Made by a program: the position numbers and the translations under genes. A stretch of 32,286 nt of DNA from Campylobacteraceae bacterium. GTDB taxonomy: Bacteria; Campylobacterota; Campylobacteria; Campylobacterales; Sulfurovaceae. Where the stretch lies: contig JALWMP010000177.1 in NCBI GenBank assembly GCA_026996165.1, positions 1-32,286 on the forward strand, given 5' to 3'. The notes under the pieces were generated by a model. That model was not told the DNA's origin. It worked only from the letters and a program-made list of their open reading frames with translations, and made no database searches. The stretch's first letter is position 1. Each line of letters starts with the position of its first letter. Positions 1 through 17,526 of this stretch are shown here, in pieces.

Positions 1-1510
1 GTATTATCTTCATAAATAACTCTTTTGTAAATTTAATCTCTAAACAAAGTGCTTTTTTATAAATATTAAACTCAGGAGAGTATTTATATGATTTAATCAA
101 AAATGATTTACTATTAAATTTTACTTTTTCCAATATTTCACTTTTTGATACAGATGGATGAAAATGTAATCTAGCAATAGCATTTTGCTCATTGGTTAAA
201 TAGTCATCAATACAAATCACTTCATCTGAAAAAGTCCACTTTCTAGTATGTAAAATTGGTTTATATCCATTATGTGTAGCTTCTATAAAACTTTTATTCT
301 CTTTAATATCTATAATATTGGCTCTATCTCCTACTCTAAAAGCACCCCAAACTTCACTTTGATTTTGAGAATTAATATCTACTGTATTGTGAGCTAAAGT
401 AGAGCGTTCAATAGCTCGTCTATTGTTAGCCTCATAAGTACTTAGTCCCATATCTACAATAAAAGGTTTACCATTTATTCTAAGTTCAAAATTAAAGGTA
501 TCAGCATGTGCATGACCTGGAATATAACTCGCTCCTATCTCTCCCGCATCAACTATACACTCATAATTCTCTTTAGAAATTTTTCTATATCCACTCTCTT
601 TAAGTTCTACCTCTTTTCTCTCAATATTTAAACGTTTAGCATAATCAAATAGTTGGTTTGTTGTTGGAGCAATTTTATTGGTACTGTCATTAAAAAGAGG
701 AATATCACCATTTTTATAGCTAATACTCTCTAACCAACCTAACATTATTTGAGCTTTTGAAATAAGAAAGTTTAATAGGTCTTCCTCTTTCCAACTATTA
801 TTCTGAAGTAGATTAATAGAATCTAAAAGCCTAAAAAGCATAATCTGATGGTACATTGGACTAAGTTCAAAGTGTCCACCATCATTTAAAATCTGCTCCC
901 TTAACTCTTGTTCTAGGATTTTCTTAGCATTTTTATAGAGTACCTCATCTTGAAAATAGTAAGCTCCAAAGAGCAAAGAGAAACCATTCTCTAAAAGATG
1001 ATTTCCCAAAAGATGATACTCTAAATTGTCTAGTAAAATGTAGTATTGAGCATATAGTGAGTCATCTATCTTTTTATCTCTTATATTATAAAAAGAGAGA
1101 TACTTAATCCAATTAACTCCTCTTAAACTAATAGGAAAAGGCTCTAACCCATCTTTTATGGTATCTATTTTGTCTATAAAATCATATATTAAAGATATAT
1201 CATCTCTTGTAGATAAAAAATCAAAATATGTAAGGTTATATGTCCATAGTTTGCCATACTCGCTATAGTTCCAATCTATATCTTTAAATCTCTTAGATAG
1301 ATTTAAAAATCTAAACTCTCCATTAGAATAGGTAGAGTCAACTCTAATAGAGTTTTGTAATTTTAATATATTTGAGTTTGAATTTTTAAAGTAGATATAC
1401 TCTATTTTAAATTTTTTTCTAGCTCTATTTCTAATAAAATAGTAAAGCCTATAATAGATTTGAGTTGGCTTCAAAAATTTAACTGTATTGAAAAGTCTAA
1501 TGTAGTTCAT
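1..1510 (-). CDS. Heparinase II/III-family polysaccharide lyase, 3' end cut by window edge
   Basis: An open frame of 503 codons runs from an ATG at 1510 to base 1 with no stop, so the C-terminus lies outside. The N-terminus (TVKFLKPTQIYYRLYY, residues 9-24) resembles that of lyase-like proteins found in polysaccharide clusters. A helical domain follows, including NHLLENGFSLLFGAY (about 170-184) and ELSPMYHQ (215-222). A beta-sandwich domain begins near 310 with GHAHADTFNFEL (332-343) and AHNTV (373-377), the conserved histidine-rich motifs of the heparinase II/III C-terminal domain. The family cleaves uronic-acid-containing polysaccharides by beta-elimination. No signal peptide is evident, unlike the upstream gene. 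The start overlaps the end of the GH123-like gene by 14 bases, so the two are probably translationally coupled. Family assignment is firm; substrate is unknown. Confidence 0.88.
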   Translation of the reverse strand, partial: MNYIRLFNTVKFLKPTQIYYRLYYFIRNRARKKFKIEYIYFKNSNSNILKLQNSIRVDSTYSNGEFRFLNLSKRFKDIDWNYSEYGKLWTYNLTYFDFLSTRDDISLIYDFIDKIDTIKDGLEPFPISLRGVNWIKYLSFYNIRDKKIDDSLYAQYYILLDNLEYHLLGNHLLENGFSLLFGAYYFQDEVLYKNAKKILEQELREQILNDGGHFELSPMYHQIMLFRLLDSINLLQNNSWKEEDLLNFLISKAQIMLGWLESISYKNGDIPLFNDSTNKIAPTTNQLFDYAKRLNIERKEVELKESGYRKISKENYECIVDAGEIGASYIPGHAHADTFNFELRINGKPFIVDMGLSTYEANNRRAIERSTLAHNTVDINSQNQSEVWGAFRVGDRANIIDIKENKSFIEATHNGYKPILHTRKWTFSDEVICIDDYLTNEQNAIARLHFHPSVSKSEILEKVKFNSKSFLIKSYKYSPEFNIYKKALCLEIKFTKELFMKII

Positions 1511-4025
1511 CAATGCTCATCTCTCTATACTCTAATATTTTATTAATTATATCTTCTCTTAATTTATCTAAATCTCCATTGCAATCTATACTTTTTATCC
1601 AACTATCTAATTTAGAGGTATCTTTTCCTTTAGATTTTAATCTATCTCTTAGATTTTCTAATGTTGAAATATACCTTACATCAGTTATTGCCTCTCTAAA
1701 CCCTTCCCATTGAATAGTACCAATAATACCATCTGTAGTAGGATAGGTAAATGCCTCTTCTCTATAAGGTGATGGATACTTTACAAACTGGTCAAAATCA
1801 TTCCAAAAAGCTCCTCTATGTGCTTGATATGCCCAATTCATTGCACCATCAAAACCTTTTTTCCATAGTTTACAGCCAAAGTTTCTTCTATATATTTCAG
1901 GGTTTTCCACTCCTGCTTGTGGTGAAGCATAGACAAAAATCTCCTTACCTTGTTTATGCCAATTTTTAATTTGCTCTTGAGTATCTTTTTTTGTAATACC
2001 TTCAGCATAATTAAAAACATCTAAAGTGTTTCCTAAATATTTGTAGGTATATCCATATCCAGCAACAAATGTTTTTGCATGATTTTTATGTACTTTTTGC
2101 ATAAAAATTTTCTCTTTTTTTAACTCTTCAGCTGGGGCTTCATCTATTCCATAAACAAATAATGAATTTTTATCATAACCATATTTTGCTAATATCTTTT
2201 GATAGGCATTTATTTTTTTAGCTAAATCTGAAGCCATAACATTAAAGCCTAAAGTATAAAATCTATCTTTAGGTAATCCAACCTTTTCTCTTAAAATTAA
2301 AGTTTTTTCTAACTGTTCCAATTTTTCATAACTTGTAGGGTACATTACCCCATGAGCTTTCATATCTTTTAACTCTAACTCTTGCTGTTTTTCACTTTTA
2401 CTATAGGAGTCAAGAGGTTTTACTTTGCTATTTGTTAATTTTCCTGTATAGTATAAAGAGTAGCTCACTTTTGGGGCATCTAAAGTAAATGGTAAAACAT
2501 CTACTCTAATAGGAAAAGATAGAACAACCTCTTCTTTACTATTTTTAATTGTAAATTGTGATGTATAGACTCCCTCTTTTGTCCCTTTAGGTACATGAAC
2601 AATTCCCCATAACAATTTATGCCTCATTGCATCTAAAACAAATGGTTGTAGAGTTTTACTGTCGTTAAAAGTAATACTATCTTCTGGAGGAAATTTATCT
2701 AACGCATCAGATATTTTAATATACTTTATTGCATTATCTTTATTTTGTTTGACTCGTAAATAGTTACTCTTACTTTTATAGTCAACCTTTACAAGTGTTT
2801 CATCTTTTAGTAGTAGCTCTTGAGTTAAGTATTTTCCTGTTTTTAATGTACTGTTACGACCACTTTGATACCAAATTTTTGCAATATATACATCTAAATT
2901 ATCTTTGGAAAAACTGCCTTGCTCTCCTTTAAAATCAGAAAAGTCAACATGATATTTACCATACTTACTTCCTGCCTCTAACAAAACAGCTATTGATTTA
3001 TATTCATTCTCTGTCATTTTTAGATTAAAAGATTTAACTCTATCTAAAAGAGGTGTATTGTATCCATTTAATCTATAGTATTTCATAGCAGGTATCTTAT
3101 AGGCATTTATCTCTACAGAGGTATAGAGACTTTTTAATCGCCTTAAATAGAAGTCTAACTGTTCTACTTTTGATATTTTTAAAATTTTATTTTTAGCTAA
3201 AATATTATCAATCTCATTAAATATTGTCTCAATCTTTTTTTGATACTCTATCTTCTCTGTTGAGTTACTTTTGATATTACTCTTTTTAAGTAACTTTGAA
3301 TAGAGTATTTTCTTCTCTTTAATATCTCTTCTGACATTAGTAATATATTTTAACCAACTCTTTTTGGATTGAGTATTAAAATCAACTATTGGCATTATTT
3401 TTCCCTCAAGTCTTAAATTATCTAAATTGATTTCGTACTTTTGTTTTCCTCGCCCTTTAATCAATATAAGTACATTAGAGATAGTTCGTCCAAAACTATC
3501 TAGTTTTGCTTTATAGATATTTGATATAAAATAGTTAGCATGTTTAGTTGTAAGTAGTTTTCCTAAATCATCACTTTTAATAGTTGTCCATCTATTATAA
3601 TCTTTATAATTTAATTTATCAAAAGCATAAATTCCTGTACTAAGAGGACGATATTGTAGATTAAAACCAACCTGTATATTATTTGCACTATGTTTATCCA
3701 TTTTTACATCTATAGAAAAGCTTAATTTATTTTTAAGATTAGGTATTGGTTTTAAAGGAATTTCTAAATAGTAATACCACTCTTTTGTTGTATCAGAAAA
3801 GCCTTTAGAGTTAATAGTAAGTTTTAAGGAACTCTTACCTTCACTAAAACTTTTTTTATTAATACTATAAACAATATCAATATCTCTACTTCTATTTAAA
3901 TCTGTTGCCCAAAATTTAATAGGTATTGAGTTTTCATTTTCAAACATTTCAGTAAATAGATATTTATCACTATTTTCCATTGCATTTAAAGTCATAGTTA
4001 AAAAAACAATAAGAAACAAAATCAT
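1497..4025 (-). CDS. Secreted GH123-like (DUF4091) protein
   Basis: 842 residues. Residues 1-15 form a hydrophobic signal peptide with likely cleavage after LNA. Residues about 20-210 look like a carbohydrate-binding beta domain. Residues 215-310 are helical and lysine-rich, and 350-510 form another beta region. The C-terminal part (about 520-800) carries hallmarks of the DUF4091/glycoside hydrolase 123 catalytic domain: FVYGIDEAP with an adjacent Asp-Glu at 628-629, as in the GH123 catalytic pair, a GFDGAMNWAY segment (724-733), and TDGIIGTIQWEGFREAITD (764-782). GH123 enzymes are beta-N-acetylgalactosaminidases that use the substrate acetamido group; the actual substrate here is not established. 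The start has GGAG seven bases upstream of ATG. It lies between a glycosyltransferase and the lyase-like gene, which suggests turnover or trimming of the polymer made by the locus. Confidence 0.8.
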   Translation of the reverse strand: MILFLIVFLTMTLNAMENSDKYLFTEMFENENSIPIKFWATDLNRSRDIDIVYSINKKSFSEGKSSLKLTINSKGFSDTTKEWYYYLEIPLKPIPNLKNKLSFSIDVKMDKHSANNIQVGFNLQYRPLSTGIYAFDKLNYKDYNRWTTIKSDDLGKLLTTKHANYFISNIYKAKLDSFGRTISNVLILIKGRGKQKYEINLDNLRLEGKIMPIVDFNTQSKKSWLKYITNVRRDIKEKKILYSKLLKKSNIKSNSTEKIEYQKKIETIFNEIDNILAKNKILKISKVEQLDFYLRRLKSLYTSVEINAYKIPAMKYYRLNGYNTPLLDRVKSFNLKMTENEYKSIAVLLEAGSKYGKYHVDFSDFKGEQGSFSKDNLDVYIAKIWYQSGRNSTLKTGKYLTQELLLKDETLVKVDYKSKSNYLRVKQNKDNAIKYIKISDALDKFPPEDSITFNDSKTLQPFVLDAMRHKLLWGIVHVPKGTKEGVYTSQFTIKNSKEEVVLSFPIRVDVLPFTLDAPKVSYSLYYTGKLTNSKVKPLDSYSKSEKQQELELKDMKAHGVMYPTSYEKLEQLEKTLILREKVGLPKDRFYTLGFNVMASDLAKKINAYQKILAKYGYDKNSLFVYGIDEAPAEELKKEKIFMQKVHKNHAKTFVAGYGYTYKYLGNTLDVFNYAEGITKKDTQEQIKNWHKQGKEIFVYASPQAGVENPEIYRRNFGCKLWKKGFDGAMNWAYQAHRGAFWNDFDQFVKYPSPYREEAFTYPTTDGIIGTIQWEGFREAITDVRYISTLENLRDRLKSKGKDTSKLDSWIKSIDCNGDLDKLREDIINKILEYREMSIDELH

Positions 4026-4029
4026 ATCT

Positions 4030-5076
4030 TTACTCCCTTTTATTATCTATTTGCAGAGTCTCCAAAAACTTAATAGTCTGCCTATCTGAATCAAAAAGTG
4101 AAAACTTCTCTTTAGCTCTTTTTGACATCTCCTTATAATTATCTTTATTGATAGAGAGTACAGCATTTAAAAGTTGCTCTACATTTTTAGGTTCTACTAT
4201 AACTCCTGTCTTGCCATTATCTACAATCTCACTTAATCCAGTTAAGTTAGTAACAATAACAGGTATACCTACAGAGTAACTCTCAATAACAATTCCTGGG
4301 TATCCCTCTCCTTTATAATAGGTTGGTAGTAACAGTACATCATACTTTTGTAAAGTGCTTAACACTTGATTAGAAGTTAATGCGCCACAGTAGTTTACAG
4401 AAGAGTTTTGAAAATAGTCTTCTGTGTATCTCTCATCTTTAATAGGACCATATAAATCTATAGTATATCCATCAGGCAAATCTCTTGCCATCTCTATAAT
4501 TTCATCAACTCCCTTCTCTTTAAATATTTGACTAATAAAGACAAACCTTTTTCTAAAAAGTTTAGGATAATATCTCTCTTTTGGTACTCTTCTTACATTT
4601 GGAAACCAGTGAGTATTTGAGTTTATAGATTTAAAACTATTGACTATATTTTTCATTTCAAAAAATAGAAAATCAATATGTTTAAAGATATATAGACGAA
4701 TTCTCTTCTCTAAACCTGTTGAAGAGGAGTAGACTCTCCAAGCCTCACCACCAAACTTTCTTAAACTAGTATTAATATTTAATATCTTAGCCATTACAAT
4801 AATAAAAGGTGCAAAAAATATATAGTCTCTTGAACTGTGCAAAGAGATATGTTTTACTTGAAAACTTTTAAAAAAAATAGATACAAAAATAGCTAAATAG
4901 GCAATAAGAGTATTACTATAGTTTTTTTTATTGCTATCAATAAGTATATAGTCAACTCTCTTTTCGTTAAACTCCTCTAAGAGATTATTAAACAGAACAA
5001 TAGCCCCACCTGTTTTAGTAGAGTCTTTTCTATTTACACATGGTCCAATTAACAATATATCATGTCTACTTTTCAT
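4030..5076 (-). CDS. Glycosyltransferase family 4 protein
   Basis: 348 residues with a GT-B two-domain layout. The acceptor-binding half has a short Gly-Gly segment (TKTGGAIVLF, 21-30). In the nucleotide-sugar half, ISQIFKEKGVDEII (181-194) and KGEGYPGIVIESY (255-267) contain the E-x7-E motif (Glu257, Glu265) typical of retaining GT4 enzymes. It probably adds one sugar to the lipid-linked repeat unit at the cytoplasmic face of the inner membrane. AAGGA precedes the ATG. The gap to the previous gene in the operon is 15 bases and to the next one only 4. Donor and acceptor sugars cannot be read from sequence. Confidence 0.88.
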   Translation of the reverse strand: MKSRHDILLIGPCVNRKDSTKTGGAIVLFNNLLEEFNEKRVDYILIDSNKKNYSNTLIAYLAIFVSIFFKSFQVKHISLHSSRDYIFFAPFIIVMAKILNINTSLRKFGGEAWRVYSSSTGLEKRIRLYIFKHIDFLFFEMKNIVNSFKSINSNTHWFPNVRRVPKERYYPKLFRKRFVFISQIFKEKGVDEIIEMARDLPDGYTIDLYGPIKDERYTEDYFQNSSVNYCGALTSNQVLSTLQKYDVLLLPTYYKGEGYPGIVIESYSVGIPVIVTNLTGLSEIVDNGKTGVIVEPKNVEQLLNAVLSINKDNYKEMSKRAKEKFSLFDSDRQTIKFLETLQIDNKRE

Positions 5077-5091
5077 AACTATTTTCCTTTT

Positions 5092-6156
5092 TTATATTGC
5101 AAATATATCTCTATTTAGTAAAATACTCTCATTAATAAACCCTCTACTTCCAGATAAATTTTTAAAATTTAAAATTGCATTTGCCAACTGTTCAATATTT
5201 TCAACATCAACCAAAAATCCATTTTCACCATCTTTAATAAGCTCTTCCATAAAAGGTATACATCTTGTTGCTACTACTGGTTTTTTTAAATAGAGATTCT
5301 CTAAAACTGTATTTGGTAACCCCTCTCTTCTTGATGATAGAACAAATAGGTCACAATGCTTATAAAAACTATATGGATTCTCTTGAAAACCTAAAAACTT
5401 AACTACATCATACAAACTATGCTCTTTTATAATCTCTTGATACTTATCCATCTCATTTGCATTGTCTGCACCAATAATATAGAGTCTATATTTTGAATCT
5501 TTTTGATAGACTTTAGAAAAAGCCTTTAATAAAATATCATACCCTTTCTCATGACTTAGTCGACCTGAAGCAACAATATTAATATAGTTTTTATCAAATA
5601 GACTCACAGTTGAACTACTCTTTTTATCAATCATTTTTGTATCTAATGGATTAATAAATACCTCTATTTTATTTTTATTGATACCATGATATTTGCAAAT
5701 CTCATCTCTCATCTCTGGTGTTTGAGCAATTATCAAATCTGCTTTTTTTAAAGCCATATCTAACAATATCTTAAAAGGTCTACTCATCTCATTGTATTTA
5801 AAAACTAACTTAGGTGAACTTGGCATTCTAAGTATTGTTTTAGGTTTTTTAATAAGGGTTTTTAAACTAAAATATAGGGCAATATGAGTTCTATAGAGTG
5901 AAGAAAAAACAATATCTGGAGCAATCTCTTTAATCTTTTTTCTCAATTTAAACAAAGAGTAGATTGTTCGTGCAGAATCTAAATTATGCACATAAATATC
6001 TTGAGGTAAAAGATGTAATGCCTCTCCCTCCATAATACCCAACACCAAATGAAGCTCATATTTTTCTCGATTTAATCGGTTTAAAATATTTATACTTACT
6101 CTCTCAGCACCACCTCCACATAGATTAGGGAGATAAAACATAATTTTTCTCTTCAT
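5092..6156 (-). CDS. Glycosyltransferase family 4 protein
   Basis: 354 residues, GT-B fold. The N-terminal loop NLCGGGAERV (11-20) is the usual GT4 acceptor-side glycine loop. ASGRLSHEKGYDILLKAF (196-213) contains the conserved Arg and Lys that bind the donor phosphates, and EGLPNTVLE (278-286) is the E-x7-E motif. It ends soon after the final helix region (residue 354), slightly short at the C-terminus but without sign of a break. It begins 3 bases after the stop of the membrane-protein gene, so it is certainly co-transcribed. Role: a cytoplasmic-face sugar transferase of the repeat unit; linkage unknown. Confidence 0.88.
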   Translation of the reverse strand: MKRKIMFYLPNLCGGGAERVSINILNRLNREKYELHLVLGIMEGEALHLLPQDIYVHNLDSARTIYSLFKLRKKIKEIAPDIVFSSLYRTHIALYFSLKTLIKKPKTILRMPSSPKLVFKYNEMSRPFKILLDMALKKADLIIAQTPEMRDEICKYHGINKNKIEVFINPLDTKMIDKKSSSTVSLFDKNYINIVASGRLSHEKGYDILLKAFSKVYQKDSKYRLYIIGADNANEMDKYQEIIKEHSLYDVVKFLGFQENPYSFYKHCDLFVLSSRREGLPNTVLENLYLKKPVVATRCIPFMEELIKDGENGFLVDVENIEQLANAILNFKNLSGSRGFINESILLNRDIFAI

Positions 6157-6159
6157 AGC

Positions 6160-7557
6160 TTAAATCTTCATATAATTAAAAATTAATACAAGAGCAACAT
6201 AAAGCATTAACATCGTCACCCAAACTTTTGTTCGTTCAGAAACTGTCATTTTTAAATAACTAAAGACCATAATTAAATATAAAATAGGATAAACAACAGC
6301 TTGTCTTCTTTGATTAAACTCAATAACAGATACTAGAACTAAATAAACAATAGAGAATATAAACATTATATTAATTTTTAAATCTAAATCATATAAAATT
6401 TTCTTAACAAATATTCCATATAGTAAGAAACCCCACCCAAAAAACCATGCAATACCTGCTAAAAGATAGGTAAAACTAAAAAATCCATTTTTTGAAGTAA
6501 AGATAAGAGATGGAGGAAAAGGCTGTATCTGCCCAAAACCTAAAAGAGCAATATAGTTTAACCCAAATGGCAATTTAGCTACTTTTGCTCCCATAGAACC
6601 TGCTGGTGCTGACTCTGCTATTCTCTCTGATGAACTCTGAAAAATCATATTAAACATATTGATTAATTCATTAGAACTTAAGACAACTATTGTACCTAAT
6701 ATTAGCAAACCAAATACAAATAAAATTTTTAAATATCTATTTTTAATAAAAGTATCTACAAAATGGAAAAAATAGACTGAGGTAAATCCAATCATAAACA
6801 CACCTGTCTCTAAACGTAAAGTATATGAGAAGAAAGAGACAAAGATTAAAATTAGTAAATTTTTAAATGATAGTTTCTCTAAAATAATATAAAATGTAAT
6901 AATAAACATTAATCCGACATGAACATCACGTAGTAAGAGACCAGACAGATAAGGAACAAAAGAGAAAAACCCATAAATAATTGCTACCATAAAAGAGATT
7001 TTTTCAGAAAAGTATAGTCTACTTATAGAGTACATAACAGAAGGAATCAATGCAGCAATCATAACTACACCTATTTTTTGAACCAACATAGTTACCTCTC
7101 CTCCCAACATATCTGAGAGTAGTTCTAAATAGACATAAAAGTTAATAGCTCCATAAACCTCTTGATATATAAAAATATTTTTAGTATCAAAAAGACTGAA
7201 ACCATTCTCTTTAAATTTATGGAAAATATCTTGTGTAGCTAAAAAAAATACCTCATCATCTCCTTCTATATAAGGATTTTGCACATTATAAACCTCTATA
7301 TACAAAAAATGTATTATAAAGGCATAAGCTAAATAGACAATAAAAAATATTAAAAATATATCAATAGCATTTTTAATATTTTCAACTCTATTTAACAAAG
7401 TAATAACCACAATACCAAAAAGCATACAGATTAAAGATAATGGTGCAATAGACTCATTATGGTCTAATACCCCTCCTATAAAACCTACAATAACTGTAAA
7501 AAATATAATCCAAGCGATATTATAGTTATCTAGTATCTTTTTAGACTCTTCTATCAT
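6160..7557 (-). CDS. Polytopic membrane protein, candidate polysaccharide polymerase or GT-C transferase
   Basis: 465 residues with about 10-12 hydrophobic segments spread over the whole length. An early non-membrane loop carries an acidic cluster (EGDDEVFF, 98-105), and basic/acidic residues sit at a membrane boundary (LLLRDVHVG, about 207-215). Wzy-type polymerases are poorly conserved in sequence and are usually recognised by topology and position. Acidic loops of this kind are also seen in GT-C (lipid-donor) glycosyltransferases. No other gene in the locus could be the polymerase, so Wzy is a reasonable inference rather than an observation. It lies 5 bases after asnB and 3 bases before a GT4 gene. 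Confidence 0.55.
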   Translation of the reverse strand: MIEESKKILDNYNIAWIIFFTVIVGFIGGVLDHNESIAPLSLICMLFGIVVITLLNRVENIKNAIDIFLIFFIVYLAYAFIIHFLYIEVYNVQNPYIEGDDEVFFLATQDIFHKFKENGFSLFDTKNIFIYQEVYGAINFYVYLELLSDMLGGEVTMLVQKIGVVMIAALIPSVMYSISRLYFSEKISFMVAIIYGFFSFVPYLSGLLLRDVHVGLMFIITFYIILEKLSFKNLLILIFVSFFSYTLRLETGVFMIGFTSVYFFHFVDTFIKNRYLKILFVFGLLILGTIVVLSSNELINMFNMIFQSSSERIAESAPAGSMGAKVAKLPFGLNYIALLGFGQIQPFPPSLIFTSKNGFFSFTYLLAGIAWFFGWGFLLYGIFVKKILYDLDLKINIMFIFSIVYLVLVSVIEFNQRRQAVVYPILYLIMVFSYLKMTVSERTKVWVTMLMLYVALVLIFNYMKI

Positions 7558-7562
7558 CTCTT

Positions 7563-9431
7563 TTACCCTATTGTATGGTTGTTTATATACTTTTTATACC
7601 ACATTTGAAAAACCAAAACAAACCAAAGTGTATTTACATTTTTACTGCTTAATCTATTGTACTCTTCTATAACATGCTCTGTATTTAATAAGCAATGCCT
7701 ATTGAGTTCCTCTTTATTTAAGTTTTTCTTGAATAAATCTTTCAACTCTGAGTTAAACCACTCAAATATAGGTATTCCAAACCCCTGTTTTGGACGCTCT
7801 ATCATCTCTCTTGGAATATATCTTTCCAAAACTTTTTTTAAAAGATATTTGCTATCGCCATTTTTATATTTTAACTCAAATGGAACTTGTGCCATAAACT
7901 CTGCAATTTTATGGTCAAGTAGTGGTTCTCGTCCCTCTATTGAGAGATTCATTGTAGCTCTGTCAACTTTAGTTAAAATATCATCTACCATATAACGATG
8001 GTAGTCCCAAAGCATCATACCTTGCATAGGATTCTCTTTTAATCCAATATCAAAACTCTTCTGAGATACCTTTTTTTGATAACTTAAAAGATTATCTACT
8101 TCAAAACTTGTTAAAGAGCAATATACCTCTTGCCAAGTATTATTTTTTACAATTTTATGAACTAATTTAATTTTAAAAGCTAAATTACTGTTTTTAATTA
8201 CTTTGTCAATATTTTTATCACCAATCAAATCTAAAATTAAATTTAAACTTTTTCTTAAAATCTTGGGAATTTTAAAGAGCTTACTACCAATATTCTCTAT
8301 AGTCCAATAGCGACTATAACCACAAAAAATTTCATCTCCTCCATCAGCACTTAAAACAACTTTAACACCTGAAGCTTTAGCTATTTGGGAGACTAATGTT
8401 GTTGGAATTCCACTACTATCTCCAAATGGTTCATCATAAATATCAACAAATCTATCTAAAATAACTTTAGCCTCATCAGCACTTAAATATTTTTCTATAT
8501 GTTTTGTTCCAATATAGTTTGCCACCTCTTTAGCATACTGGGCTTCATTATATTTTGCTTCATTAAATCCAATAGTAAATGTATGAATATTTCCATAATG
8601 TTTTTGAAGTATAGCAGCTACAATAGAGCTATCTACCCCTCCACTCAAAAAGACCCCTACAGGCACATCTGATACCATTCTATATTTAAAAGCCTCTATT
8701 AAAATAGCCTCTAACTCATCAACAAGCTCCTCTTCACTCTTTTGAAACTTTGGTAGTTTGAAAAATGGTAAAATAGACCAATACTCCTCTATTTTTAAGG
8801 AGTTTGTTTTAGTATTAAATGTCAAATAGTTTCCAGCAGGTACTCTATTGCAATTTTCAAAAATTGACAAGTTAGAAGAGATATATCCAAATTTAAAATA
8901 CTCATAGAGTGCTTCTTTATTGATTATTAGATTTTTATCCTCTTTAAAGTACTCCATAATTGGTCGAAGTTCACTACCAAATACAAACTCTTCTCCATCA
9001 AAATAGTAGTAGAGTGGTTTAACCCCTACTCTATCTCGAATTAATGTTAGCTCAGATGTCTGTTTATTGTAAATAACAATAGCAAACATTCCTCTAAACT
9101 TATCAACTGATTTAATACCCCACTTATGATACGCTTTTAAGATAACCTCACTATCTGTATTTGAATCAAAAGTATAGTTATAGGTAATTAACTCATCTCT
9201 AATCTCTTTATAGTTATAAACCTCACCATTATAGACCATAATAAAATCTTCATAATCCATTGGCTGATGTCCATGACTACTTAAATCAAGAATAGATAAT
9301 CTTAGATGTCCCAAAGAGAGTGCTTCGCTCTCATATTGCCCATTATCATCTGGACCTCTATGATTGATTGAAGCCATCATACGCTCTAACTTTTTACTAT
9401 TTTTCCCTGAAAAACCTACTACACCACACAT
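7563..9431 (-). CDS. asnB: Glutamine-hydrolysing asparagine synthase-type amidotransferase
   Basis: 622 residues, full length for the AsnB family. The N-terminal Ntn glutaminase domain begins with Met-Cys (Cys2 nucleophile after Met removal), followed by HRGPDDNG (24-31), RLSILDL (44-50) and NGEVYN (68-73). The synthetase domain has the ATP pyrophosphatase loop SGGVDSS (263-269) and SADGGDE (361-367). All expected catalytic motifs are present. Free-standing AsnB makes asparagine. Homologues inside surface-polysaccharide clusters are proposed to convert a hexuronic acid carboxylate to an amide, for example WbtH-type proteins of Francisella O-antigen. Its position among glycosyltransferases in a locus that also encodes WecB/WecC favours the second role. 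The start shares one base with the preceding gene's stop (TAATG). Confidence 0.9.
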   Translation of the reverse strand: MCGVVGFSGKNSKKLERMMASINHRGPDDNGQYESEALSLGHLRLSILDLSSHGHQPMDYEDFIMVYNGEVYNYKEIRDELITYNYTFDSNTDSEVILKAYHKWGIKSVDKFRGMFAIVIYNKQTSELTLIRDRVGVKPLYYYFDGEEFVFGSELRPIMEYFKEDKNLIINKEALYEYFKFGYISSNLSIFENCNRVPAGNYLTFNTKTNSLKIEEYWSILPFFKLPKFQKSEEELVDELEAILIEAFKYRMVSDVPVGVFLSGGVDSSIVAAILQKHYGNIHTFTIGFNEAKYNEAQYAKEVANYIGTKHIEKYLSADEAKVILDRFVDIYDEPFGDSSGIPTTLVSQIAKASGVKVVLSADGGDEIFCGYSRYWTIENIGSKLFKIPKILRKSLNLILDLIGDKNIDKVIKNSNLAFKIKLVHKIVKNNTWQEVYCSLTSFEVDNLLSYQKKVSQKSFDIGLKENPMQGMMLWDYHRYMVDDILTKVDRATMNLSIEGREPLLDHKIAEFMAQVPFELKYKNGDSKYLLKKVLERYIPREMIERPKQGFGIPIFEWFNSELKDLFKKNLNKEELNRHCLLNTEHVIEEYNRLSSKNVNTLWFVLVFQMWYKKYINNHTIG

Positions 9432-10504
9432 TATACACTCTCTCTTATATTCTCAATAACATCTAACCACTTATTTGCAATCTTATCTATATCTAAACGC
9501 TCTACTATCTTTTGTCCATTTTTTCCCAAACGCAAACGTTTAGAGGAGTCAATCATTAAAGAGTCCATACTCTTAGTTAAAGCTTTAACATTCTTGGCCT
9601 CTATTAAAATACCATCTTTCTCATGAGATATAATCTCTCTTGGAGCATAGGGAGAATCAAAAGCAATTACAGCACAACCATACCCCATAGCTTCACACAA
9701 CACCCCTGGAAAACCTTCTGTTCTTGAAGATAGAACAAAGATAGATGCCTTTTTATAAAAGTATTCGACATCTTCTTTTTGTCCAACAAGTTCTACTCTA
9801 TCTTCTAAATTAAGTTTTTTAATAAGCTCTTCAAGGTTTTGTCGCTCTTTACCCTCTCCGACTATTTTTAATCTCCACTCTTTTTGTCTTGTTTTGGCAA
9901 ATGCTTCTATTAACATGTCAAAACCTTTAACATAATTTAACCTTCCAACACTTAATATAACATTTTCTCGCTGTAAGTTAGTATATTTTTCTTGTAAAAT
10001 TAATGGATTTTCAATCTTATATCTATTTTTGACAAAGGAGTATCGCTCCTTATCGGCATCTGTTAAAACAACTAAACCATTTGCAAATGGATAGACAATC
10101 CGTCGCAGTTTTTTCCAAAATGGTTTAATATCTAAAAAATCATAAGCACTTCTCTCCGATACCAATATCGGTTTTTTTGATAATTTTGAAGCAACAATAG
10201 AGAGTATATTCATCTCAGACATAAAACTAATAACTATATCTGGATTTTCAAATAGTATATTTTTTCTTATTGCATTAATTAGCTTAGGTATATAGGTGAC
10301 TCTACTTAACAGTTTAGAAGAGTTTTTAGGTATATCAATACCTATTAAATTAATAGTGCTACTAAGTGGAAAAAATGGTTTATCTTTTGAGATAATCAAA
10401 ATAGATACACTGTGACCAAGAGTTTCAAAATGGTTAGCAAGGGTAGTTAAGATTTTCTCAGCACCTCCTGTATTTAAGGAACTGATTGTAAATAAAATTT
10501 TCAT
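9431..10504 (-). CDS. Glycosyltransferase family 4 protein
   Basis: 357 residues, GT-B fold. SLNTGGAEKIL (9-19) is the N-terminal glycine loop. SVGRLNYVKGFDMLIEAF (185-202) contains the donor-phosphate-binding Arg/Lys, and EGFPGVLCE (263-271) is the E-x7-E motif. It overlaps the preceding gene by 4 bases (ATGA) and shares one base with asnB, so translation is probably coupled through all three. It is likely one of four glycosyltransferases that assemble the repeat unit. Specificity is not predictable. Confidence 0.9.
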   Translation of the reverse strand: MKILFTISSLNTGGAEKILTTLANHFETLGHSVSILIISKDKPFFPLSSTINLIGIDIPKNSSKLLSRVTYIPKLINAIRKNILFENPDIVISFMSEMNILSIVASKLSKKPILVSERSAYDFLDIKPFWKKLRRIVYPFANGLVVLTDADKERYSFVKNRYKIENPLILQEKYTNLQRENVILSVGRLNYVKGFDMLIEAFAKTRQKEWRLKIVGEGKERQNLEELIKKLNLEDRVELVGQKEDVEYFYKKASIFVLSSRTEGFPGVLCEAMGYGCAVIAFDSPYAPREIISHEKDGILIEAKNVKALTKSMDSLMIDSSKRLRLGKNGQKIVERLDIDKIANKWLDVIENIRESV

Positions 10505-11739
10505 CTATTTTCTCTTTTTGCTCTATCTATCTCTAAGATTGCAGATTTATATTTTTGATATATAGCTTCACTATCTACATGTTTTTTTACAAACTCATGT
10601 GAGGCTCTACCCACTTCTGCTCTGTATTCACGGCTACTACAGTTATGTAAATGCTCTAAAATCTCATCAACTGTTGTAGCATTTAATGTTGCTACATCAT
10701 CTCCCCAAATCTTTTTAAAAACATCTAATCTTGCATTTGCAATTACTGGTTTACCCATATATTGAGCATAAAGACCAATAGCACCTGACCAGTGGTTTCC
10801 TACTTGGTCAAACATAATATCTCCTCTTTTATATAGGTTTAGTAACTCCTCTAAACTCATCTCTTTATGCCAGACAACTACCTCTTCTATTCCTAAATCT
10901 CTACAGAGTTGTTTTGCAATTTTAATATTTTCATCAGAGCCTTTTTCAACAAAATGCACTTCAATATTTTTATTACTCTTATAGTATTTGGCAATAGCTT
11001 TAATAATTAAATCATTGCCTTTATATTCAAACTCATTCTCTTTTGTTGTCTTAATTAAAAATCGTACTGCTGAAACAATAACTAACTTATCATTGTCTGT
11101 TGCACCTACATACTCTAAACCAATCTCTTTAAAATTAATATCATAGCGTCGAATATCAATATATTCTCTATCTCCCATTATCTCCTTTTGAAGTCTATCT
11201 CCAACAGGGTTCATACCAATAGGAAAATATGATAATATATGTGAAGATTTAATATTGTCTCTATATCTTCTAATAAAAAACTTTAATAAAACTCTTTTTA
11301 CCTTTTTAATCCACCACTTTTCATCTGCACCTATTAAGTTGTCAATATTGTCATAGTTACAAGTAACATCTAAATCTGCTCCACTAAAAAGTGCTACTTT
11401 TATAAACTTTTTTCTACTAAAATAGCCAGAGATATGATGACCATAATGGTTAAAAAAGATAACATCTCTATCTGCCATCTCTTTACGAACTTCTCTTGTA
11501 AAGTATCTATTAAATAGAAGATGTAGTAACTTACTAGAGAAAGGAATCTCTTTAATCCACTCAGGATAAGGATAATCAATACTTTTATAGTGTATCTCTG
11601 GCCGCATCAACATCTCAGATGGGTCACTCTCAACAATATATTTAACATCACAACCATCTTCTCTAAATTTTAACGCATACTGCATTGGCATAGTATTCAT
11701 ATTACCTATAAAGCCTATTTTTAATTTTTCTATACCCAC
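10501..11739 (-). CDS. Divergent GT-B-like glycosyltransferase
   Basis: 412 residues starting at a GTG with AGGA seven bases upstream. IGFIGNMNTMPMQYALKF (8-25) looks like the opening Rossmann strand and helix of a GT-B enzyme. The C-terminal half has the order VSAVRF, a KGNDLIIKAIAKY helix, a VHFVEKG strand, MSLEELLNLYKRGDIMFDQ and SGAIGLYAQYMGKPVIA, which parallels a GT4 donor domain. The usual E-x7-E motif is replaced by GNHWSGAIGLYAQ. It is therefore a distant GT4-like member rather than a standard one. A transferase role is supported by position between glycosyltransferase and acyltransferase genes. Confidence 0.7.
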   Translation of the reverse strand: MGIEKLKIGFIGNMNTMPMQYALKFREDGCDVKYIVESDPSEMLMRPEIHYKSIDYPYPEWIKEIPFSSKLLHLLFNRYFTREVRKEMADRDVIFFNHYGHHISGYFSRKKFIKVALFSGADLDVTCNYDNIDNLIGADEKWWIKKVKRVLLKFFIRRYRDNIKSSHILSYFPIGMNPVGDRLQKEIMGDREYIDIRRYDINFKEIGLEYVGATDNDKLVIVSAVRFLIKTTKENEFEYKGNDLIIKAIAKYYKSNKNIEVHFVEKGSDENIKIAKQLCRDLGIEEVVVWHKEMSLEELLNLYKRGDIMFDQVGNHWSGAIGLYAQYMGKPVIANARLDVFKKIWGDDVATLNATTVDEILEHLHNCSSREYRAEVGRASHEFVKKHVDSEAIYQKYKSAILEIDRAKRENR

Positions 11740-11748
11740 TGTTTTATC

Positions 11749-12819
11749 CTAATTTTTTAATTTTTGATGAGAATAATATTTCACATCATTTTCAAATTTT
11801 TCTAAAAAAGTATCAATATTATTTTTGGTTAATAGTATTCCAAAGTCTTTTGGTATATTTGGATCTTTTTTTCCTGACAATTTATGAGCAATAAGTGTTC
11901 CAATATAAGGATAAAAGTGGTCATCATCACAATAATTATTAAGATTTAAAGTAATACTATTAATAGTCATAAAATGATGAACTTCTCCAAAAACATCAAT
12001 AGTCTCTTTTAACCATCGTCTATATGCTTTTAATTTCTCTTGACTATCTAAGAGTGAGGTCAACAGTGCTGCTGTAATAGGTGATGTAAAAATAATAAAT
12101 TGACTCTTTGGATTCTCTTTTTTTATCTCTTTTAATCTATTGATATAATTATTATCATAATGATATTTTTTTGTTGACATCGCTTCTAAATGCCGTTTCA
12201 ATCCCTCTTTAAATGCTTTTTTTCGCTCCTCTTCAGAGACTCTAGAGTTATATTTAATATTATTTCTACTAAAGGTATGTTTTTTATATTCAGATAAACT
12301 ATATTGAATATTTATAAACGATTTTACTAAAGTATCTTTAAGAAACATCATTTTATAACGATAAAAAAGAGAAGTACTTTTATTGAAATAGTAACTTGGA
12401 TAATGAATATTTAACTTTTTCATATTAGCTATACCTGAACCATAGAAATCTAAACCAATAATAATATATTTTAAATTATCTAAACCATTTTTTTTAGCAA
12501 AATTAATATACCCTTTGTATTCAAAAGGATACATACTATTAGAAGCATAATTATAAATTTTCATACCCTCAAAATCATATTGATTAATAAAAGTTGTTCG
12601 ACTACTTCCTAAGAGTATTCCATTAAACTGCTTTAATTTATTAAAATAAACAGCATTACTTTTTTGCTGTCGTTCATTAAATCCTTCTTGAAACTTATTA
12701 AATTGGTTGCTATGTCCAAATGTCCAAAGAGGGTCGACTACATAATTAATAGCTCCAACTAGAGTTAAAAAGAAAAAAAATAATAGGAAAAATTTTGTTA
12801 TCCATTGTTTTGCATTCAT
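11749..12819 (-). CDS. SGNH/AlgJ-X-like partner of the membrane O-acyltransferase
   Basis: 356 residues with a single N-terminal membrane anchor (about 7-25) and a periplasmic domain. ILLGSSRTTF (68-77) fits the nucleophile block of SGNH-like acyltransferases (Ser72 or Ser73), and DDDHFYP (298-304) fits the Asp-x-x-His of the same triad. AlgJ/AlgX-type and DltD-type proteins work with an MBOAT channel protein to pass an acyl group, normally acetyl, to a polysaccharide in the periplasm. The MBOAT gene ends 11 bases before this one starts, which strongly supports the pairing. AGGAG lies eight bases before the ATG. It is among the most AT-rich genes in the window. Confidence 0.75.
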   Translation of the reverse strand: MNAKQWITKFFLLFFFFLTLVGAINYVVDPLWTFGHSNQFNKFQEGFNERQQKSNAVYFNKLKQFNGILLGSSRTTFINQYDFEGMKIYNYASNSMYPFEYKGYINFAKKNGLDNLKYIIIGLDFYGSGIANMKKLNIHYPSYYFNKSTSLFYRYKMMFLKDTLVKSFINIQYSLSEYKKHTFSRNNIKYNSRVSEEERKKAFKEGLKRHLEAMSTKKYHYDNNYINRLKEIKKENPKSQFIIFTSPITAALLTSLLDSQEKLKAYRRWLKETIDVFGEVHHFMTINSITLNLNNYCDDDHFYPYIGTLIAHKLSGKKDPNIPKDFGILLTKNNIDTFLEKFENDVKYYSHQKLKN

Positions 12820-12830
12820 TATACTTTCTC

Positions 12831-14279
12831 CTAGAAATTAAAATATAAAAATTCACTAACTTTATTAAAAGCAATAATTGAGATAAAAAAAGTAATAAAT
12901 GCCATAAATAGAGTTTTATAATTTAAGGTAAAGTTATTTAATTGTTCAATAGAATTTTTTGTAAAAAGAATAATCAATAAAATTATCAATAATTTAACAA
13001 TAGTCTTTTCTGAGCCATTAATATCGACCAAATAATCTCCAAATTCAATATTATAATTATGTAAAAAGTTTAATTGAGATGCCCATGAACTAGGTAGCAT
13101 AAAACCACTTTGTCCAAACATACCCAATAAAATTTTTTTAGCATCTTCCCACTCCTTAGCTCTAAAAAAAATCCAACTAATATTAATAAAATTAAAAGTA
13201 ATAAACCAACTAAACCATGTATGAAGGTTAATACCAAACTGCTTCCATAGACGATGAATAGTTAAAGCTAATCCATGTAAAAATCCCCAAAAAATAAAAG
13301 TCCATCCTGCTCCATGCCAAATACCTGCAATAAGAAAAGTAATCATTAAATTGAAATATGTTCTAAATTTATTAATACGATTTCCACCCAAAGGAATATA
13401 AATATAATCTTTTAAAAAACGGCTCAAAGTTATATGCCATCGTCTCCAAAAATCTTGAATATTAATAGATTTATAAGGACTAAAAAAGTTAATTGGTAAT
13501 TTGATGTTAAAAAGTAAAGCAATTCCTATAGCCATATCAGTATAACCACTAAAATCAAAATAGAGTTGAAATGTATAAGAGAGTGATGTTGCCCAAGCTT
13601 CAATAAAGTTTAGATTATTTGCTACATCAAACCCTTGTGTTGCCCAAATAGCAAAAGTATCAGCAATAATTACTTTCTTAAAAAGTCCCATAGAAAAGAT
13701 AAAAATCCCCATGGCAATATGTTGGTAATTTATAATTTTATTTTTACTTTTTAAAAACTGAGGTATCATCTCTTTATGATGCACAATAGGCCCTGCTATT
13801 AATTGAGGAAAAAAGGTTACAAAAAGAGTATAGTTTAAAAAATTATACTCCATGGTCTCTTCCTTATAACTATCAACCAAGTAGGCAATCTGTTGAAAAG
13901 TAAAAAAAGAAATAGCTAAAGGTAATGCTAAATGTAATAAAGCTATATGAGTACCACTCATTAAATTAATATTTTCAATAAGAAAGTCTGAATATTTAAA
14001 ATATCCCAATAAAACAATATTTATAATAATACCAATAGATAAAATTATTTTTTTATACTTTTTGCAAGAAAATAAAATCTTCCCTACAAAATAGTTTATA
14101 AAAATAGATGATATTATTAGTGGTAAATAGACAATATTCCACCAACTATAAAAAAAGAGACTACTTAACACCAACCAAACCTTACTAACTTCAATCAATT
14201 TTCTTTTATTAAGATAAAAATAAATAAAAAAAGTTAAGGGTAGAAAAATACATATAAACTCATAACTATTAAATAACAT
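12831..14279 (-). CDS. MBOAT-family membrane O-acyltransferase (AlgI-like)
   Basis: 482 residues, about ten membrane segments. Diagnostic blocks for the AlgI branch of the MBOAT family are present: the N-terminal MLFNSYEFI, FFPQLIAGPIVHH (156-168), YFDFSGYTDMAIG (240-252), FWRRWHITLSRFLKDYIYIP (277-296, with His282) and GIWHGAGWTFIFWG (319-332), which contains the invariant catalytic-site His322. The protein moves acyl groups from a cytoplasmic donor to the periplasmic SGNH partner encoded next. It overlaps the flippase gene by 11 bases. The acylated substrate is presumably the locus polysaccharide. Confidence 0.93.
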   Translation of the reverse strand: MLFNSYEFICIFLPLTFFIYFYLNKRKLIEVSKVWLVLSSLFFYSWWNIVYLPLIISSIFINYFVGKILFSCKKYKKIILSIGIIINIVLLGYFKYSDFLIENINLMSGTHIALLHLALPLAISFFTFQQIAYLVDSYKEETMEYNFLNYTLFVTFFPQLIAGPIVHHKEMIPQFLKSKNKIINYQHIAMGIFIFSMGLFKKVIIADTFAIWATQGFDVANNLNFIEAWATSLSYTFQLYFDFSGYTDMAIGIALLFNIKLPINFFSPYKSINIQDFWRRWHITLSRFLKDYIYIPLGGNRINKFRTYFNLMITFLIAGIWHGAGWTFIFWGFLHGLALTIHRLWKQFGINLHTWFSWFITFNFINISWIFFRAKEWEDAKKILLGMFGQSGFMLPSSWASQLNFLHNYNIEFGDYLVDINGSEKTIVKLLIILLIILFTKNSIEQLNNFTLNYKTLFMAFITFFISIIAFNKVSEFLYFNF

Positions 14280-15777
14280 TTATACTCCTTCTAAACACAA
14301 TGCTAATTTTTTCTCTTACTTTTGAAAGAGTTAAAGCATTTAATAGTAATAAAACACTACCTAAAATAAGTAAAACAACAAAGGTCTCAACTTGATTAAA
14401 GCTTGTAAAGTCAATAGAAATATAGTCAATTATTTTAAAATAGATAATGGTCATCAACAGTGGAGGTAAGATGTCTTTTAATACCCAATCAAAATGTATT
14501 CCTTTGGCAAATTTTTGATGTATAAAAGGAGGCCAAATTAAAAAGGTAATCATCTGTATTGCAAACCATGCAACTCCAGCTCCAAAAGCACCATAGTTTA
14601 CAACAGCATAAAAAACAATAGGTAGAGCAACTAGAGGAAAATATGTATTGAATCTAATATGATATTTTAAATTTCCATAAGCAAACTGTAGATAATATTG
14701 AAATGCAGCAAGAGCTAAAATAGCATTTCCCATTGCATACCAAGATAGTATAGGACTTGCCCATAAAGAGGCTTCCTTATCTCCTGTCCACGAATAGAGG
14801 AGTTCATAAGAAAATTTAACAACAATACCAACAACAGAAAATATAATAACAGATATAAACTGTGTTCCTTTATGATATAGTCTTAACATCTCTTTCTCTT
14901 TACCATTAGATAAAAGAGAGGTCATTCTAGGTAAAATTGCTTGACTTAAAGGAGATGAAAACTGCATAATAGCACTTGAAACAAGAACAACCAATGTAAA
15001 ATAACCATAATTTTCAAGAGCTATATAGTGAGAGAGCAATAGTTTATCTAATTGAGTATAAACAATCCATACACTAGATGTATATGCTACTCCAAAAGCA
15101 AATGGTGCTATTTTTTTTATAGAGGAGATAGAGGGTAAAAGAAATTGAGTGTTTTTTGGTAGATTACCATAAACTTTTCTATTAAGAGTAGTAAACTCAA
15201 TAACTGCAATTATTGCTTGATAGAGAAAGTAGTATAAGATGTTATTGGTAATATAGATTACCAATATTAAGCCTCCTACAAATCTAATAGTAGACATAAC
15301 TATTTTATAAATATTTAACCATACTTGCTCTTCAAATCCTAAAATAAGGCTATCATATAGGCTAACATACCATTTTAAAATAAACATGAAACCCATTAGT
15401 TCAATACATTGCTTAACAGTTGAAAATGATAACTCTTTTACCTGTAACCAGTGAGAAGCTATCCATTCACTAGATAAAAGAACTAAAATAAAAACAAAGA
15501 TAGAGACAAAAAATATCATACTCTCTACACTTCTTAAAGTTAATTTTAACTCTATAAGTCCATTTAGTTTATCTTTTAATATAGCTGTTTCTCGTGAAAG
15601 TACCTGACTAAATCCCATATCTAAAAGCATCATCCATGAGATAAACATGGTAAAAAAACCAACTAAACCATAGGCTTCTGCTCCTAGATATTTAAGATAT
15701 ATAGGTAAAACTACAACCCCAATAATCATACTATAAAATCGCCCAATATAGTTGGCAATAACATTTCTTTTTAACAT
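14269..15777 (-). CDS. wzx: Wzx-type polysaccharide flippase (MOP superfamily)
   Basis: 502 residues with 12-14 predicted membrane segments and the typical opening NVIANYIGRFYSMIIGVVVL (5-24) followed by YLKYLGAEAYGLVGFF. This is the signature start of polysaccharide-export MOP flippases. It would move undecaprenyl-diphosphate-linked repeat units across the inner membrane. It overlaps the upstream thiamine-enzyme gene by 7 bases and the downstream MBOAT gene by 11. Presence of a Wzx without ABC-export genes in the window points to a Wzx/Wzy-dependent pathway. Confidence 0.88.
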   Translation of the reverse strand: MLKRNVIANYIGRFYSMIIGVVVLPIYLKYLGAEAYGLVGFFTMFISWMMLLDMGFSQVLSRETAILKDKLNGLIELKLTLRSVESMIFFVSIFVFILVLLSSEWIASHWLQVKELSFSTVKQCIELMGFMFILKWYVSLYDSLILGFEEQVWLNIYKIVMSTIRFVGGLILVIYITNNILYYFLYQAIIAVIEFTTLNRKVYGNLPKNTQFLLPSISSIKKIAPFAFGVAYTSSVWIVYTQLDKLLLSHYIALENYGYFTLVVLVSSAIMQFSSPLSQAILPRMTSLLSNGKEKEMLRLYHKGTQFISVIIFSVVGIVVKFSYELLYSWTGDKEASLWASPILSWYAMGNAILALAAFQYYLQFAYGNLKYHIRFNTYFPLVALPIVFYAVVNYGAFGAGVAWFAIQMITFLIWPPFIHQKFAKGIHFDWVLKDILPPLLMTIIYFKIIDYISIDFTSFNQVETFVVLLILGSVLLLLNALTLSKVREKISIVFRRSINVI

Positions 15778-17525: not shown

Positions 17526-17526
17526 T

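Follow-up and report, generated by a model that had tools for sequence, protein, structure and literature searches.

A predicted exported GH123-type hydrolase and a HepP-type heparinase-fold protein in a surface-polysaccharide synthesis locus of a Sulfurovum-like bacterium

The locus and its genes

The window analyzed here is a whole contig of 32,286 bp and holds a Wzx-type surface-polysaccharide synthesis locus of a Sulfurovum-like bacterium. The host is a marine, sulfur-oxidising type of bacterium. All genes described below are on the minus strand. Read along that strand, the UDP-GlcNAc 2-epimerase WecB (22948–24102; TIGR00236 above cut-off) is followed by the UDP-ManNAc dehydrogenase WecC (21760–22947; NF008286 541 bits, cut-off 459), the dTDP-glucose 4,6-dehydratase RmlB (20756–21778; TIGR01181 above cut-off), an RmlA-type nucleotidyltransferase (19811–20674; PF00483) and a DegT-type sugar aminotransferase (18726–19799; PF01041 1e-90). 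Then come an ATP-grasp ligase resembling L-amino-acid ligases (17527–18723) and an acetolactate-synthase-like TPP enzyme (15771–17537), both recognized by profile searches, the Wzx-type flippase (14269–15777; PF01943 1e-19), an MBOAT O-acyltransferase (12831–14279; PF03062 3e-37) and its 356-aa partner (11749–12819), which has no significant Pfam match and was assigned from its neighborhood. The next genes encode a GT4-like glycosyltransferase (10501–11739; PF00534 3.8e-6), a GT4 glycosyltransferase (9431–10504; PF00534 1.7e-45), an asparagine-synthase-like amidotransferase (7563–9431; PF00733 6e-96, with TIGR03108 below cut-off), a 465-aa protein (6160–7557) and two further GT4 glycosyltransferases (5092–6156, PF00534 7.5e-37; and GT4a, 4030–5076, PF00534 8e-23). 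The 465-aa protein has no Pfam or NCBIfam match and is a possible Wzy judging from its position; homologs of it occur in several lyase loci, those of G017 and G018 included. These profile searches bear out the biosynthetic nature of the locus claimed in the earlier note.

The last two genes are the subject of this study. The first encodes an 842-aa glycoside hydrolase (GH; 1497–4025), close to which the 356-aa MBOAT-partner gene is also found in L057 and L059. The second encodes a heparinase II/III-fold protein, hereafter the lyase, whose open reading frame spans positions 2–1513 and gives 504 aa if read from a TTG, or 503 aa if translation starts with the ATG at 1510, the C-terminus being beyond the contig end. 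As described earlier, the two large ORFs overlap by 14 bp, the GH stop and the lyase ATG sharing positions 1497–1510. The pair had also been placed at the 3' end of the locus. That end proved to be the end of the assembly: the contig stops within the lyase gene, so the end of the operon is not demonstrable from the window, and of the relatives that carry both genes, the three closest, all of them Campylobacterota, have additional synthesis genes downstream of the GH and the lyase. A WbuB-like GT4 of the same genome (C108) was rejected as a continuation of the window, as it is flanked by ORFs of the other strand. A promoter scan was uninformative (41 sites vs. 38.1 expected), and likewise a terminator scan.

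Features of the two proteins

The AlphaFold model of the GH has a pLDDT of 92.9. In Foldseek searches it matched NgaCa at 3e-22, and the 22 best rows, 8k2l (NgaP2) among them, were GH123/DUF4091 enzymes, followed by a drop to 5e-8. VIA gave Z scores of 21.6–25.8 for GH123/DUF4091 structures, the highest being that of NgaCa, vs. 16 for the next family, and both methods placed residues 304–836 closest to the GH123 enzymes. The catalytic Asp-Glu pair, D628-E629, is invariant in 47/47 aligned sequences and aligns with the pair of BvGH123, but within a weak-scoring stretch. In the Pfam profile search PF13320 had no match in the GH or anywhere in the genome, and the GH123 N-terminal model reached only a sub-threshold 0.02. 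The GH was therefore filed as a relative within the GH123/DUF4091 superfamily and not as a PF13320 member; the earlier description as GH123-like stands for the fold and falls for Pfam. The GH resembles NgaCa and the Groups 1–4 GH123/DUF4091 beta-N-acetylgalactosaminidases (Sumida et al., 2024; PMC11087588) in its fold, its Asp-Glu pair and a C-terminal DUF4091-like stretch. According to that study, the 2-acetamido group that GH123 enzymes use is the one on beta-GalNAc or beta-GlcNAc. It differs from NgaCa in having approximately 19% identity, no PF13320 match and approximately 300 extra N-terminal residues. At its N-terminus there is a hydrophobic export-type segment (2.88), which the lyase lacks, as judged from hydrophobicity alone. 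The GH is thus a predicted exported hydrolase of the GH123/DUF4091 fold. A phage origin was rejected, as tblastn against the phages collection gave no match.

The lyase matches PF07940 (8e-42) and PF16889 (8e-11), both above cut-off, which confirms its assignment to the heparinase type. By alignment, N170, Y220 and H333 correspond to the Asn/Tyr/His triad of heparinase III and are invariant in the relatives, in whose alignment the triad is numbered one higher. No signal-like N-terminal segment was detected by hydrophobicity in 33 near-full-length sequences of this type. The best PDB matches of the lyase model are PL12 heparinase III structures. However, the model was built on five sequences and has a pLDDT of 71.6, with active-site loops below 50, and owing to this low confidence it was not used for the question of lyase versus epimerase. 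Dermatan sulfate epimerase 1 (DS-epi1) is a C5-epimerase with the heparinase II/III fold and active-site residues, albeit a eukaryotic Golgi enzyme unlike the window lyase (PMC8006597); it is absent among the best 50 PDB fold matches listed for the lyase model. Lyase and C5-epimerase are not separable by sequence and fold. The archaeal C5-epimerase Agl32 has a different fold (PMC13308652).

Distribution, neighborhoods and known systems

The lyase is commoner than the GH, being present in 33/175 genomes vs. 6/175. Its neighborhood is conserved: a GT4 or a bi-domain oxidoreductase, then the lyase, then a WbuB-like GT4. The gene after the lyase is a WbuB-like GT4 in 21/32 loci, and the gene before it encodes a GT4, a bi-domain oxidoreductase, an amidotransferase or a 460-aa protein in 27/30. 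GT4a is the commonest direct upstream neighbor in the relatives (11/30 loci), and the bi-domain oxidoreductase takes that place in 10/30, where the window has the GH instead. Whatever the same-strand upstream gene encodes, it overlaps the lyase ORF in 22/30 loci; short overlaps are thus usual at the lyase start, and the overlap was rejected as a sign of a functional GH-lyase pair.

WecC is present in 27 of the 33 lyase genomes vs. 18/142 others (OR 31; strict count 23/33), compared to 22/33 vs. 66/142 (OR 2.3) for the control RmlB; these genomes are related, and the significance of the co-occurrence overstates their independence. In 15 of the 27 genomes with both, WecC is on the lyase contig at a distance of 2.4–25.1 kb. 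The lyase is likewise among synthesis genes in 6/6 loci from other families of the order, with WecB and WecC in four of them. Lyase loci in which wecB is accompanied by a dehydrogenase gene are also found in Parabacteroides, on an E. coli plasmid and chromosome, in Citrobacter and in Sulfitobacter. WecB/WecC are not near the lyase in two of the six loci of the other families, and six of the 33 lyase genomes have no WecC.

The GH is rare across the phylum (only 2/397 genomes). In the genome_contigs collection, classified by hand, 9 of 80 GH loci are synthesis loci, and no HepP-type lyase was found in the examined flanks of the other 71. In the GH tree, 9 of the 10 synthesis-locus sequences fall within one 17-row clade, and it is this clade, mostly in synthesis loci, that sets the GH apart from the NgaCa groups. 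GH relatives of Planctomycetota and Armatimonadota are mostly outside synthesis loci. Synthesis loci that contain both the GH and the lyase are found in three phyla, their carriers being Campylobacterota, an ignavibacterium and a deltaproteobacterium; the two genes directly adjoin one another, among the loci examined, in the window only. L084, L089 and L115, three genomes with a synthesis-locus GH, have no PF07940 match. The neighborhood survey suggested in the earlier note thus found the pair, among related genomes, in synthesis loci and in none that is catabolic.

Judging from published descriptions, the lyase is of the same type as HepP of Pseudomonas aeruginosa PA14 and VV0358 of Vibrio vulnificus. 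HepP has the heparinase II/III fold and no export signal, and it is preceded by the bi-domain oxidoreductase ZbdP, as in many relatives of the window lyase; the window itself differs in having the GH, and no bi-domain oxidoreductase, directly upstream. In a plate assay, heparin was cleared by recombinant HepP (rHepP), which is lyase behavior (PMC5732420); among the proteins compared here, it is only for rHepP that beta-elimination is reported. The hepP mutant is reported to have reduced pellicle and biofilm, and the PA14 O-antigen to contain alpha-L-GalNAcA. In V. vulnificus, VV0357 and VV0358 are, as in the window, a dehydrogenase and a heparinase-like protein tied to capsule genes; deletion of either leads to capsule loss, so both are required, and no GH is mentioned in the available part of that account (PMC6037467). 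The occurrence of HepP-type genes in O-antigen and capsule loci is already known. GH123-like genes have also been noted near O-antigen and capsule genes, with roles in exopolysaccharide, O-antigen or capsule suggested (Sumida et al., 2024; PMC11087588). The earlier note did not recognize the pairing; indeed, a GH123-like enzyme combined with a HepP-type lyase in a synthesis locus was not found in the literature searched, although each part is known near such genes. No link of the HepP type to epimerization was found in that literature either, subscription journals being mostly outside its scope.

Possible roles in polymer synthesis

The reading we favor, with a probability of roughly 55%, gives an exported GH the task of trimming or clearing the polymer, and the lyase-fold protein a cytoplasmic role in its synthesis, perhaps that of a C5-epimerase. 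As only the GH has an export-type segment, the two probably work with the membrane between them. The GH would probably cut the polymer of its own locus at beta-N-acetylhexosamine, as oligosaccharide-releasing GH123 relatives do. The heparinase-fold protein would reside in the cytoplasm, probably at the inner face of the membrane, and act on a uronic-acid residue whose precursor would be the UDP-ManNAcA supplied by WecB/WecC. Its conserved Tyr/His set may abstract the C5 proton, the likeliest outcome being modification, e.g., C5 epimerization of ManNAcA to L-GulNAcA, over chain cleavage. The role proposed for the lyase is based on its fold and triad, the lack of a signal-like segment, its gene context and its co-occurrence with WecC, together with published work: the requirement of VV0358 for capsule, the hepP mutant phenotype, the alpha-L-GalNAcA of the PA14 O-antigen and the heparinase II/III fold of the C5-epimerase DS-epi1. 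The plate-assay behavior of rHepP, the lyases heading the model's PDB matches, with DS-epi1 absent from the 50 listed, and the lyase loci with no WecB/WecC nearby speak against the favored reading.

A more specific and tentative proposal is that the HepP-type "heparinases" encoded in loci for O-antigen, capsule or exopolysaccharide are cytoplasmic C5-epimerases converting lipid-linked ManNAcA to L-GulNAcA, with the bi-domain oxidoreductase, in loci that have it, also inverting C3 to give L-GalNAcA, the sugar of the PA14 O-antigen. WecB, WecC, the oxidoreductase and the "lyase" would then form a single L-hexosaminuronic acid pathway, the product of which would in some loci be policed by a GH123-type hydrolase that is exported.

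AlgL (alginate) and PslG (Psl) are built-in depolymerases inside synthesis loci, and the earlier note saw in both proteins of the window possible enzymes of this kind, matched to the locus polymer. The intact active sites of both, their overlapping genes in one operon, the shared synthesis loci in three phyla, the heparinase activity of rHepP and the clean-up lyase proposed by the V. vulnificus authors agree with that explanation. The exported GH does fit the AlgL/PslG pattern of a degradative enzyme in a synthesis locus. The lyase, however, departs from it in having no export-type segment, most lyase genomes have no GH, synthesis-locus GHs occur without a PF07940 protein, and the two genes are neighbors in the window alone. 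In addition, the capsule is lost without VV0358 and equally without its oxidoreductase partner, which suggests that proteins of this type are needed to make the polymer; AlgL-type lyases can be required for polymer output too, so the capsule loss is not decisive. We consider a matched depolymerase pair unlikely. The accompanying suggestion that one WecB/WecC sugar serves both enzymes holds in so far as lyases of this type go with a supply of ManNAcA. For the GH it is chemically awkward, because GH123 enzymes use the 2-acetamido group, which in beta-ManNAcA is cis to the linkage.

Slightly less probable still is an editing role for the lyase, which would then remain in the cytoplasm and cleave lipid-linked repeat units that are wrong or in surplus before they are flipped. 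The lack of a signal-like segment, the position of the gene among glycosyltransferase genes, the intact triad and heparinase III as the closest solved relative are all compatible with such an enzyme, but the bi-domain oxidoreductase partner and the equal null phenotypes better suit a sugar-making step. A role of the pair in polysaccharide catabolism is very improbable and was rejected on gene context: both folds are frequent in degradation loci and the planctomycete and armatimonadete GH relatives mostly lie outside synthesis loci, but the window locus is biosynthetic and the 71 other GH loci have no HepP-type lyase in the flanks examined.

"Heparinase" and "alginate lyase" annotations are common inside the O-antigen and capsule clusters of many genomes. 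If such proteins are synthesis enzymes, these annotations and the polymer chemistry predicted from them would be wrong. The epimerase proposal, if true, would provide a testable candidate for the missing step to L-GulNAcA and L-GalNAcA. The GH, in turn, adds a clade of GH123-type enzymes that are predicted to be exported and are associated with polymer synthesis, for which the obvious substrate to try would be the polymer made by their own locus.

Composition of the locus and a test of the lyase's link to uronic acids

The window is a complete contig (32,286 bp) from a genome of 1.86 Mb in 192 contigs. A minus-strand gene run from 24102 to 2 encodes WecB, WecC, RmlB, RmlA, DegT, an ATP-grasp protein, a TPP enzyme and Wzx, and further an MBOAT protein, a 356-aa partner, four GT4 proteins, an amidotransferase, a 465-aa unknown, the hydrolase (GH; 1497-4025) and the lyase (2-1510). 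The gene set is that of a Wzx-type polysaccharide locus. Within it, the genes of the TPP enzyme, which resembles acetolactate synthase, and of the ATP-grasp protein, which resembles amino-acid ligases, overlap (15771-18723); together the two perhaps make an unusual acyl group and attach it to the DegT amino sugar. The amidotransferase (7563-9431) is related to the XrtA-associated TIGR03108 family and could amidate the uronic acid; such a change would bear on lyase and epimerase reactions alike. The 465-aa protein (6160-7557) has no Pfam or NCBIfam matches, has homologues in many lyase loci and may be the Wzy polymerase.

Among the 175 genomes of the family, the lyase is present in 33 and WecC (E <= 1e-60) in 45. 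WecC was found in 27 of the 33 lyase genomes versus 18 of the 142 without lyase (OR 31; p 2e-14, a value too small because the genomes are related), and in 23/33 once four lyase genomes with WecC of just 61-62% identity were left out. The corresponding figures for the control RmlB (E <= 1e-100) were 22/33 and 66/142 (OR 2.3, p 0.05). Lyase and WecC share a contig in 15 of the 27 genomes, spaced 2.4-25.1 kb, and lie on separate contigs in the other 12.

The hydrolase and its association with the lyase

The earlier note described a GH123-like hydrolase and a heparinase-type lyase at the end of a biosynthetic operon. This observation holds in part: the GH123-type fold, the lyase assignment (clear PF07940 and PF16889 matches) and the biosynthetic locus were confirmed, but PF13320 gave no match to the window GH. 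Phmmer recovered GH123 enzymes weakly (8k2l, 2.4e-4), and a profile built from GH relatives also matched nine distinct GH123 chain sequences. In the AlphaFold model (pLDDT 92.9, pTM 0.88; input of 46 relatives out of 77 usable stretches listed) the top 22 Foldseek rows were all GH123/DUF4091 enzymes, the best being Group 1 NgaCa (3e-22), and for residues 305-836 VIA gave Z 25.8 across 444 residues (next family, 16). D628-E629 is invariant in 47/47 alignment rows and the N-terminus is strongly hydrophobic (2.88 on the 12-residue scale). The protein is thus likely an exported GH123-type hydrolase.

Counting the window's own genome, GH was found in 6/175 family genomes and in 2/397 of the phylum sample; in G016, a genome labelled as same-genus, the match lies on a 7,435-bp contig. 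When 80 GH loci (genome_contigs) were labelled by hand from marker matches and Pfam, nine were of synthesis type (L057, L058, L059, L065, L076, L084, L089, L093 and L115); L085 and L110, with markers nearby but partly on the opposite strand, were left out of this count. In the GH tree 9/10 synthesis-locus sequences, window included, fall inside one 17-row clade, and the label still needs 5 changes versus a shuffled mean of 9.4. The nearest GH relatives outside Campylobacterota include those of Phycisphaerae (L060, L061, L126), which are versions of 1,423-1,460 aa, L061 having a second copy alongside. Directly upstream of GH, all three campylobacterotan relatives encode a GINT1_N-domain protein (L058:1520-3193, L059:8225-9898, L057:9270-9968), which is absent there in the window.

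The lyase query matched four of the 80 GH loci (L057, L058, L059, L093), and in L076 the lyase lies on the same contig just past the fetched flank. Therefore, a HepP-type lyase is carried by 5/9 synthesis-locus GH contigs, from Campylobacterota, an ignavibacterium and a deltaproteobacterium; the remaining 71 GH loci have none within the fetched flanks. The genes in between number one in L057 and L058, two in L093, seven in L059 and eight in L076. The two are thus adjacent in none of the relatives. What argues against a fixed pairing is that the genomes of L084, L089 and L115 have no PF07940 match anywhere despite a synthesis-locus GH. Two further GH genomes, L065 and L070, encode a lyase of this type on a different short contig (L154, L155), and G016 and G065, the other two family genomes with GH, are absent from the list of lyase-match genomes.

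Neighbourhood and sequence of the lyase

Besides the window, 36 lyase loci were compared, 32 of the family and four from GH-bearing genomes of other phyla. The downstream gene encodes a WbuB-like GT4 in 21 of the 32 loci having a next gene. The same-strand upstream gene (n=30) is a homologue of the window's GT4 gene at 4030-5076 in 11 loci, a bi-domain oxidoreductase in 10, a 460-aa protein in three, an amidotransferase in two, another GT4 in one and unlabelled in three; it overlaps the lyase ORF in 22/30, with start codons picked mechanically. In six genomes from other families of the order the lyase is flanked by GT or oxidoreductase genes (6/6), with WecB and WecC within about 20 kb in 4/6. 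A Parabacteroides record has the order GT4, bi-domain oxidoreductase, lyase, wecC, wecB, GT4, and an E. coli plasmid record wecB, wecC ... heparinase, WbuB; other annotated homologues occur in the E. coli AR_0077 O-antigen region, Sulfitobacter and Citrobacter. The O-antigen-like E. coli cluster resides on pC06114_2 (L138; typed IncC conjugative), and copies of its heparinase gene at least 99% identical occur on plasmids of 5/5,426 E. coli genomes. On a Haloarcula marismortui plasmid (L177) the homologue lies behind and overlaps a GT4 gene, a neighbour type as in bacteria, but sulfatase and PTS genes are nearby, so the lyase context is not uniform.

The heparinase III triad N240/Y294/H424 aligns to window lyase N170/Y220/H333. 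N170 is conserved in 37/37 sequences, Y220 in 37/37 and H333 in 36/36 (numbering in the conservation table is +1 because the TTG start was used there). Y294 follows the numbering of PMC11848413. Among 33 lyase sequences (>490 aa, window included) the peak 12-residue hydrophobicity of the first 45 residues was 0.02-2.02, and below 1.2 in 29.

Possible role of HepP-type proteins

C5 inversion of D-ManNAcA yields L-GulNAcA, and inversion at both C3 and C5 yields L-GalNAcA. The former step was proposed as the origin of L-GulNAcA in V. cholerae VPS (PMC3901696), and alpha-L-GalNAcA is a constituent of the P. aeruginosa PA14 O-antigen (PMC2997053), under whose biosynthesis zbdP and hepP are filed (PMC4198096). 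V. vulnificus YJ016 lost its capsule when either VV0358, coding for a heparinase-like protein, or VV0357, coding for a zinc-binding dehydrogenase, was deleted in frame, and complementation restored it (PMC6037467). The proposal that GH and lyase form a depolymerase pair matched to the locus's own polymer is not favoured, as the lyase shows no evident signal-like segment by hydrophobicity, an absence also reported for HepP (PMC5732420), and VV0358 is needed for capsule. In PA14, zbdP-hepP form an operon and pellicle and biofilm are weaker without hepP; the zbdP mutant does not share the biofilm defect (PMC5732420), which argues against a strictly joint role there.

HepP-type proteins could instead be lyases rather than epimerases. 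This reading draws on the clearing of heparin on plates by rHepP (PMC5732420) and on PL12-like folds among the matches listed for the window lyase model. Human DS-epi1 adopts the heparinase II/III fold; small changes, as proposed by the authors of that work, turn a lyase into an epimerase (PMC8006597; also PMC11848413). Capsule genetics, L-GalNAcA/L-GulNAcA chemistry and the DS-epi1 fold fit a cytoplasmic epimerase, though they do not prove it. The HepP-type protein is likely a synthesis enzyme and possibly an epimerase; it would act in the cytoplasm, and the oxidoreductase, where present, would handle C3.
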